Positions 16,156-17,094 of a stretch of 64,000 nt of DNA are shown one piece after another (position 1 is the first letter of the stretch; every line of letters begins with the position of its first letter). Source of the stretch: Methylopila sp. 73B (GTDB taxonomy: Bacteria; Pseudomonadota; Alphaproteobacteria; Rhizobiales; Methylopilaceae). The translations under genes and the position numbers were made by a program. The DNA is taken from positions 4,032,501 through 4,096,500 of the forward strand of contig NZ_JAFV01000001.1 of assembly GCF_000526315.1 (NCBI RefSeq). Direction: 5' to 3'. The notes under the pieces were generated by a model. That model was not told the origin of the DNA, made no database searches, and saw only the letters and a list, made by a program, of their open reading frames with translations.

Positions 16156-16422
16156 TCAGTGCAGGCTGACGGTGACGAGCTCATGCTCGCGCGCGCTCTC
16201 GAACAGGGCTTCGCGGCTGTCCGCGACCACGATCGGCTGTCCGTTGGCGCCGAGCAGCGCGAACAGCTTCAGGCCCGGCTCAAGCTCGGGAGCCTCCGGA
16301 AACAAAGCGTTCAGCTCCTCGGAGAGGATCGGTTTGACGTAGGCGATGTGGCCGTCGCCAACGGCCGCAAATTCGGCCGAACTCAGGGGACCCTGACGGA
16401 CCGAAGCGTTTTCCCGGATCAT
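16156..16422 (-). CDS. DUF1150 family protein
   Basis: 88 residues, acidic, no signal or membrane segment. The sequence AFAAVGDGHIAYVKP-like (here EFAAVGDGHIAYVKPI) and LFALLGANGQPIVVADSREAL are typical of DUF1150. This family is found almost always directly downstream of an Hsp20 gene in alphaproteobacteria, as here (three bases between the hsp20 stop and this start), so co-expression in heat shock is expected; molecular function is unknown. Confidence 0.88.
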   Translation of the reverse strand: MIRENASVRQGPLSSAEFAAVGDGHIAYVKPILSEELNALFPEAPELEPGLKLFALLGANGQPIVVADSREALFESAREHELVTVSLH

Positions 16423-16425
16423 GAC

Positions 16426-16881
16426 TCACTCCTTCTCCGCTAAGCGGCTGCTTTCGTCGCGCGACACGATGGCGATACGTTGAACTTCGCGCTTCGGCTC
16501 TGGACGAACGAGATCGACGACCAAAAGTCCCGTCGCAAGATCGGCGCCGAGAACTTCCATGCCTTCGGCGAGCAGAAAGGCTCGGACGAACTGGCGGGCC
16601 GCGATCCCCCTGTGCAGGTAGACGCGGTCTTCGCGCTCGGCCGGCGGCCGGCCACGGATCACCAGTTCGTTCTTCTCGATCGTGACCTCCAGCTGTTCGG
16701 GCTGGAAACCTGCGACGGCGAGCGTGATGCGGAGCCGTTCCGGCCCGTCGATCGACGGGCCCACACGTTCGATGTTGTACGGCGGGTAGCCGTCGGCGCT
16801 CTTCGCGACGCGATCCAGCGCGCGCTCAAGGCCGTCGAACCCGAGCAGAAACGGGCTCTGAAAACTCGTCATACGCGACAT
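16426..16881 (-). CDS. Hsp20 family small heat shock protein (IbpA class A type)
   Basis: 151 residues from the ATG at 16881 (MSRMTSFQSPF), preferred over upstream ATG 16899 because an AAGGA site sits eight bases before it. The N-terminus is FLLGFDGLERALDRV, followed by YPPYNIER, and the alpha-crystallin domain runs from about residue 37 to 125 (LRITLAVAGFQPEQLEV, ELVIRGR). The C-terminal IxI motif (IAI in VQRIAIVS) mediates oligomerisation. It binds unfolding proteins without ATP. It is preceded by a ROSE-like thermometer and followed by DUF1150. Confidence 0.95.
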   Translation of the reverse strand: MSRMTSFQSPFLLGFDGLERALDRVAKSADGYPPYNIERVGPSIDGPERLRITLAVAGFQPEQLEVTIEKNELVIRGRPPAEREDRVYLHRGIAARQFVRAFLLAEGMEVLGADLATGLLVVDLVRPEPKREVQRIAIVSRDESSRLAEKE

Positions 16882-16956
16882 GTTCAAAGTCCTTCGCATA
16901 AGCGACTTTGACGGAGCCTCGTAAACAAAGCGCTCCGAAGGCCGGTGGTTCCGGCC
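16882..16956 (-). promoter_or_regulatory. ROSE-type RNA thermometer in the hsp20 5' UTR
   Basis: Read on the minus strand, three hairpins precede the start codon. H1: GGCCGG/CCGGCC (16940-16956). H2: CGGAGC/GCTCCG (16912-16937). H3 (16886-16909): AAAGTC-(G)-CTT pairs with AAGGACTTT, so the Shine-Dalgarno AAGGA is buried in the stem with one bulged G in the motif TCGCT. A U(U/C)GCU motif with a bulged G opposite AGGA immediately before a small heat-shock gene is the defining feature of ROSE elements described in rhizobia. Heating would melt H3 and free the ribosome binding site. Confidence 0.8.
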
Positions 16957-16959
16957 GAT

Positions 16960-16993
16960 CGTTAAGGTGGGCGCGGGACGCGTGGCTTTCAAG
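16960..16993 (-). promoter_or_regulatory. Possible sigma-32-type promoter of hsp20
   Basis: On the minus strand CTTGAAA (16987-16993) matches the RpoH -35, and CCCACCTTAAC follows at about the right distance (16961-16971 region). Transcription would start just upstream of the first ROSE hairpin. The -10 match is imperfect. Confidence 0.45.
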
Positions 16994-17094
16994 CGCCCCG
17001 GGTTCCGCCGCCCTAAGGGCGCCGCCGCCCTTGCGGCTTGCGTTCGCAGGGTCGTTGGCGCCTCATGGCCGCCGCCAAAAAGGGGGTCTCGTTC

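Follow-up and report, generated by a model that had tools for sequence, protein, structure and literature searches.

A conserved ROSE-like leader of the hsp20-larA operon, a candidate RNA thermometer in Methylopila and related Alphaproteobacteria

Described ROSE elements and the hsp20-larA operon

The published signature of ROSE RNA thermometers, as described in PMC3669281 and PMC11342760, is a U(U/C)GCU motif that pairs with the Shine-Dalgarno (SD) sequence around a bulged G. For the short ROSE-like leader of Pseudomonas ibpA, hairpin I is described as not melting; leaders without it were still thermoregulated, breaking its pairs led to derepression, and the role of ROSE 5' hairpins is called incompletely understood (PMC3669281). 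ROSE-like motifs are reported upstream of ibpA and also of hspD in a strain of the Roseobacter clade (PMC3230580), which is a precedent for such an element at a second small heat-shock gene. In Caulobacter, the DUF1150 protein LarA is an activator of the Lon protease, and its gene follows shsp2, which encodes a small heat-shock protein, in an operon under sigma32 control; the word 'thermometer' does not occur in the main text of that paper (PMC10665427). Among titles and abstracts, we found none describing a thermometer of hsp20-larA or a hairpin I that repeats the core, although Nocker 2001, Waldminghaus 2005 and Chowdhury 2003 may cover part of this.

We analysed a stretch of 64,000 nucleotides from Methylopila sp. 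73B (contig NZ_JAFV01000001.1), hereafter the window, which contains an operon of the LarA type. Its genes and promoter are:

16429..16881, minus strand: hsp20, encoding a 151-aa small heat-shock protein (PF00011 at 58.2 bits; cut-off 20.8)
16159..16422, minus strand: second gene of the operon, DUF1150 (PF06620, 97.1 bits), LarA family
16965..16993, minus strand: probable sigma32 (RpoH) promoter, with CTTG at 16993-16990, a degenerate -10 CCACCT at 16970-16965 and an offset of 23, assigned from the motifs of relatives and from position

The DUF1150 gene directly follows hsp20, starting three bases after its stop codon, and the Hsp20 product shares 99% identity with its counterpart in Methylopila sp. 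Yamaguchi. For comparison, we collected homologous leaders, taking the best 80 of at least 574 confirmed stretches. CCATWT occurs within 160 nt of the start in 74 of these 80, and is preceded 18-24 nt upstream by CTTG or TTGAA in 71; the corresponding counts in shuffled controls were 113/1600 (CCATWT) and 4/1600 (CCATWT with CTTG), a somewhat generous contrast because only CTTG was sought in the shuffles. The -10 of the window fits CCATWT at 4/6 positions and was recognised by its position and, by eye, from relatives in the genus; its assignment to a sigma32 promoter of the hsp20 operon is probable.

Three hairpins over the ribosome binding site

Between this putative promoter and hsp20, the minus strand from 16956 to 16879 folds into three hairpins within 78 nt, leaving the start ATG (16881-16879) unpaired in the minimum-energy structure (-34.2 kcal/mol; z -4.0; none of 200 dinucleotide shuffles as stable). 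The elements of the leader are:

16940..16956, minus strand: H0, the 5'-most hairpin, GGCCGG-aacca-CCGGCC, a variable accessory (computed fold)
16912..16937, minus strand: H1, CGGAGC(G16931)CTT-tgtttac-GAG.GCTCCG, a twin of the ROSE core that hides GAGG (fold, core search, arm-swap, covariation)
16884..16911, minus strand: H2, the ribosome-binding-site hairpin, TCAAAGTC(G16903)CTT-atgcg-AAG.GACTTTGA (fold, core search, covariance model, covariation, class-wide sample)
16890..16894, minus strand: SD sequence AAGGA within H2 (sequence reading)
16901..16905, minus strand: UCGCU anti-SD motif with the bulged G16903 (sequence, with the motif as defined in PMC3669281 and PMC11342760)

An earlier, sequence-only reading of this DNA had described three consecutive hairpins before hsp20, the last of them burying AAGGA, and the computed fold agrees with it on both points (H0 16956-16940, H1 16937-16912, H2 16911-16884), with AAGGA paired to UCGCU around the single bulged G16903. 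The stem of H2, given there as nine pairs, has eleven in the computed fold, eight outside the bulge and three inside, and the bulged-G architecture of H1, omitted from that reading, is an addition to it. Eight bases separate AAGGA from the start ATG. By eye, the stem of H0 differs among relatives in the genus and is apparently missing in some.

The opposite strand of the leader is of comparable stability (z -4.2), because inverted repeats fold on both strands. The pair adjoining the H1 bulge is UG in 21 and CG in 19 of the aligned leaders described below, and this exchange, together with the gene and its ribosome binding site, indicates the minus strand. A run of three neighbouring G+C-rich inverted repeats close behind an inferred promoter could also be a transcription attenuator or terminator, or an operator acting at the DNA level. 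We consider this very improbable: the sequence contains no U run after any of the three hairpins, the UG/CG exchange makes sense in a minus-strand RNA and not in DNA, and the SD lies within H2.

In structure and position, the ROSE-like class is characterised by a U(U/C)GCU motif imperfectly paired with the SD and containing one bulged G, by a position in the leader of a small heat-shock gene, and by two to four hairpins in about 60-100 nt with a free start codon; we found all of these here, with the computed openness of the start codon at 37 C being 0.54-0.77 once more coding sequence is included. For the further trait of the class, temperature-dependent opening and translation, nearest-neighbour melting gives a weak, non-discriminating and context-dependent signal. 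We favour, with a probability of roughly 0.8, the interpretation that the leader of hsp20-larA is a ROSE-like translational RNA thermometer. At growth temperature, H2 would keep the 30S subunit out; heat would then open the strained stem at the bulge and allow translation of Hsp20, and LarA would be translated along with it by coupling. The likeliest role for H1, whose bulged-G core is the same but covers no ribosome binding site that is used, is that of a partner to H2 in folding or recognition.

None of the Rfam ROSE covariance models, a comparison that the sequence-only reading had proposed, matches the leader: there was no match to RF00435 (ROSE) even at E <= 10, its gathering score being 45 bits, and none to RF01832 (ROSE_2) or RF02523 (ROSE_3) at the gathering score. 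The leader is therefore ROSE-like and outside the catalogued families; the original description as ROSE-like stands on the published signature, the Hsp20 gene, the compensatory changes and the class-wide sample, but not on membership of any Rfam family. Among 20 of the 80 homologous loci searched, one (L076) had a weak ROSE_3 match (21.3 bits against a cut-off of 43), and RF01832 had no match at E <= 0.001 among the candidates scored in the genome of the window.

The leader shares with RF00435, the Bradyrhizobium hspA type, the UYGCU hairpin with a bulged G over the SD, the small heat-shock gene and the upstream hairpins, but its hsp20 belongs to another Hsp20 branch and is paired with DUF1150. 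Like the two-hairpin element of Pseudomonas ibpA, it is compact and combines a G+C-rich hairpin with a U(U/C)GCU SD hairpin (PMC3669281). ROSE_2, including E. coli ibpA, also has a UCGCU SD hairpin preceded by a hairpin with a single bulged G (4/5 RF01832 matches, in a search of 5'-side bulges only that left out the fifth match, L165); the upstream core there is Y(G)UCC, whereas that of the window is Y(G)CY. ROSE-G likewise has a bulged G in the anti-SD strand, but it is described with CUGCU, another bulged G on the SD side and ABC transporter genes, unlike the single bulge found here (PMC12857270).

The same genome contains a second Hsp20 gene (C1:2950083-2950582, minus strand; L001), in which CATGTC(G)CTT lies over the SD and whose start gives a sub-threshold RF00435 match of 27.8 bits.

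Conservation and spread of the architecture

In the computed fold, the UCGCU strand of H2 pairs with the SD and leaves one G bulged, and the Hyphomicrobiales keep this arrangement with compensatory changes. We searched the last 90 bases of the 80 homologous leaders for the core Y(G)C[CU] facing [AG]GG, requiring four or more outer pairs. Two such cores were found in 68 leaders and one in the remaining 12, as compared with two cores in 4/4000 dinucleotide shuffles and in 3/5314 segments taken from elsewhere in these loci; this makes H1 a twin of H2, both having Y(bulged G)CY opposite RGG.

We also compared stems with their arms as found and with arms swapped between leaders, anchoring on the inner pair and excluding the outer stem. 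For the first four outer pairs of H1, 0.83 of positions pair as against 0.65 with swapped arms (56 distinct arm pairs; 77/80 leaders anchored), and the maximum over 5000 swaps, 0.746, lies below the observed value. For H2 alone, with 19 distinct arm pairs, the observed 0.829 (swapped mean 0.671) did not exceed the swapped maximum of 0.842. A first anchoring, with an ambiguous frame at GGG runs, had given 0.697 (swapped, 0.572) for H1 and 0.641 (swapped, 0.579) for H2, and was superseded.

In an alignment of 41 leaders that was itself fitted to the structure (41 matches from 45 chosen sources, drawn from the 80 loci, the window and L110), 99.0% of the cells pair. Changes on both sides occur in 9/17 pairs and 36 cells, as compared with 4.0 pairs and 5.4 cells in shuffles, and with at most 4 pairs and 9 cells when partners are slid.

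The last core near the start is YGCU in 43 of the 80 leaders of the order and YGCC opposite GGG, a G+C-richer variant found, for example, in Methylobacterium, Microvirga and Bosea, in 34; a strict core near the start is absent from the other three (L052, L054, L083). Four Methylobacterium leaders (L058, L073, L079, L082) have 20-23 nt between the end of their last core hairpin and the assigned start; either the start codon may be misassigned or control may be different in them. Within the genus (L168-L179), the H1 loop is, by eye, nearly constant in sequence but H0 and the linkers are variable, a pattern that would suit recognition of the loop by some factor.

We built a covariance model from 11 leaders picked for equal H1 loops, because MAFFT misaligned H1 in several rows, and excluded the Methylopila-like loci L005-L007 from it. 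The model finds the leader of the window (37.8 bits, E 2.6e-7) and 48/80 homologous leaders at E <= 0.01, of which 11 are its own seeds. It also matches 13/13 genomes of the genus (own included), 15/18 of the family and, under strict filters that make this a lower bound, at least 43/199 of the order. Across 142 genomes of the class, with 40 candidates scored per genome, the only match was in the genome of the window. Two further matches in that genome, C1:4148088 (26.4 bits) and C1:3504403 (20.3 bits), were rejected as second copies, as they have coding-like frames and no small heat-shock gene after them; around them, L107 lies before a long open frame and L106 resembles the reverse of one. 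Three Bradyrhizobium genomes (L065, L072, L078) contain an element of the window type before hsp20 (42.9-48.3 bits) and RF00435 matches elsewhere, and the leader from Rhizobium leguminosarum (L083) scores only 11.7 bits.

DUF1150 is present in 66/134 alphaproteobacterial genomes. From the 30 best-scoring DUF1150 loci, 28 had a recognisable hsp20 start, including that of the window (L112), and 27 of these 28 leaders have a YYGCU hairpin over the SD, as compared with 116/2800 shuffles; the exception without a core covering the SD, L110, is from the same order. The outer stems are often short, with three pairs in 11/27, and under the strict rule the 28 leaders contain two core hairpins in 17 cases, one in nine and none in two.

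Predicted melting and the role of the twin hairpin

In nearest-neighbour computations, SD openness in the leader of the window is 0.13 at 20 C and reaches 0.32 at 50 C. Across eight ROSE elements used as yardsticks, six over and two under the Rfam cut-off, the gain is between 0.04 and 0.26; three others (L085, L088, L092) were excluded because the AGGA taken was the wrong one, in the coding region. Without the bulged G, H2 is locked shut in silico, with an SD openness of 0.00-0.01. From 20 to 42 C, SD openness increased by at least 0.05 in 10 of 25 chosen leaders and decreased in six (L033, L014, L044, L083, L070, L130). Computed melting is shallow, and it was rejected as a discriminator of thermometers.

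Folding at several temperatures, which the sequence-only reading had put forward as a check, was carried out on five stretches, four with the start codon region and one being the interval proposed by that reading, and all of them have H2 in their best structure up to 37 C. H1 drops from the best structure with extra 5' or coding sequence, up to 48 C in 16870-17005 and up to 37 C in 16840-16985. In transcripts starting at 16957 and folded at 25 C, the pairs of H2 form with a mean probability of 0.91 when 3 or 12 nt of coding sequence are included and of 0.86 when 22 are; the value is 0.04 at 32 nt and 0.65 at 42 nt, and then 0.80, 0.86 and 0.87 at 62, 92 and 122 nt. For H1 it is 0.39 at 42 nt and returns to 0.84 at 122 nt. 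The start of the hsp20 coding sequence may therefore compete with both hairpins for pairing in this model.

That predicted melting is shallow and dependent on context would also suit a constitutive structured leader, which stabilises the mRNA or keeps basal translation low with no useful temperature response, and mRNA protection has been proposed for hairpin I of Pseudomonas ibpA (PMC3669281). Stability alone, however, would need neither the bulged G nor the YYGCU motif found over the SD in 27/28 class-wide leaders, and removal of the bulge locks H2 shut in silico; we therefore regard this explanation as improbable, and retain the ROSE-like thermometer as the preferred reading.

An alternative of another kind arises from the twin hairpin. 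The hairpins could be a binding site for Hsp20, free Hsp20 keeping the leader closed and leaving it when titrated by aggregates, so that melting would be secondary and H1 a second recognition hairpin. The analogy is with E. coli IbpA, which represses its own mRNA via R93, with Y34 also implicated, while IbpB does not repress (PMC10474464). The residues aligned to R93 and Y34 are R and Y in the window and in 80/80 relatives, the R93 pattern extends to 28/28 class-wide proteins, that of the window included, and the non-repressing IbpB has Q at the R93 position. Moreover, H1 retains its bulged G though it has no ribosome binding site in use. The best upstream hairpin with a single bulge has a 5'-side G in 59 of the 80 leaders, as compared with C in four, T in three and A in two; the bulge is on the 3' side in 10, and two have no such hairpin.

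The upstream bulged-G hairpin is also found beyond these leaders. The first hairpin has a bulged-G core in 10/12 RF00435 matches (four of the 12 below the Rfam cut-off; for example, L085-L094) and, in a second set, in 14/20 (two below the cut-off, and one of the 14 positives, L147, doubtful), as compared with 145/2000 shuffles (for example, L155-L158 and L161). Three of the 23 loci of the second set had been dropped for lying too near a contig end, and the second Hsp20 leader of the genome of the window is among the six of 20 without the core. A bulged-G upstream hairpin also occurs in E. coli ibpA and four further enterobacterial leaders, but there U, not C, follows the G, and 5'-side bulges alone were searched.

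The conservation of R93 and Y34, together with the twin hairpin, therefore makes chaperone feedback a serious possibility, although both residues may be conserved for other reasons and Pseudomonas ibpA leaders lacking hairpin I stayed thermoregulated (PMC3669281); on balance, we hold it to be possible and rather doubtful. More speculatively, and in our view unlikely, the ROSE core may be duplicated such that H1 is a site of its own, most likely one that Hsp20 grips in repressing its own mRNA, and the leader would then read both temperature and free chaperone and so set LarA and Lon, in alphaproteobacterial hsp20-larA as well as in classical ROSE and enterobacterial ibpA leaders.

With the ROSE-like thermometer as the favoured interpretation, this leader is a conserved thermometer candidate, missed by Rfam, for an operon of Alphaproteobacteria in which the genes of a chaperone and of a Lon activator stand together. 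As both genes share one leader, heat could govern the holding and the degrading of damaged proteins together. The upstream hairpin, which in many ROSE elements has the same bulged-G core as the SD hairpin, offers a testable lead on the function of ROSE 5' hairpins.
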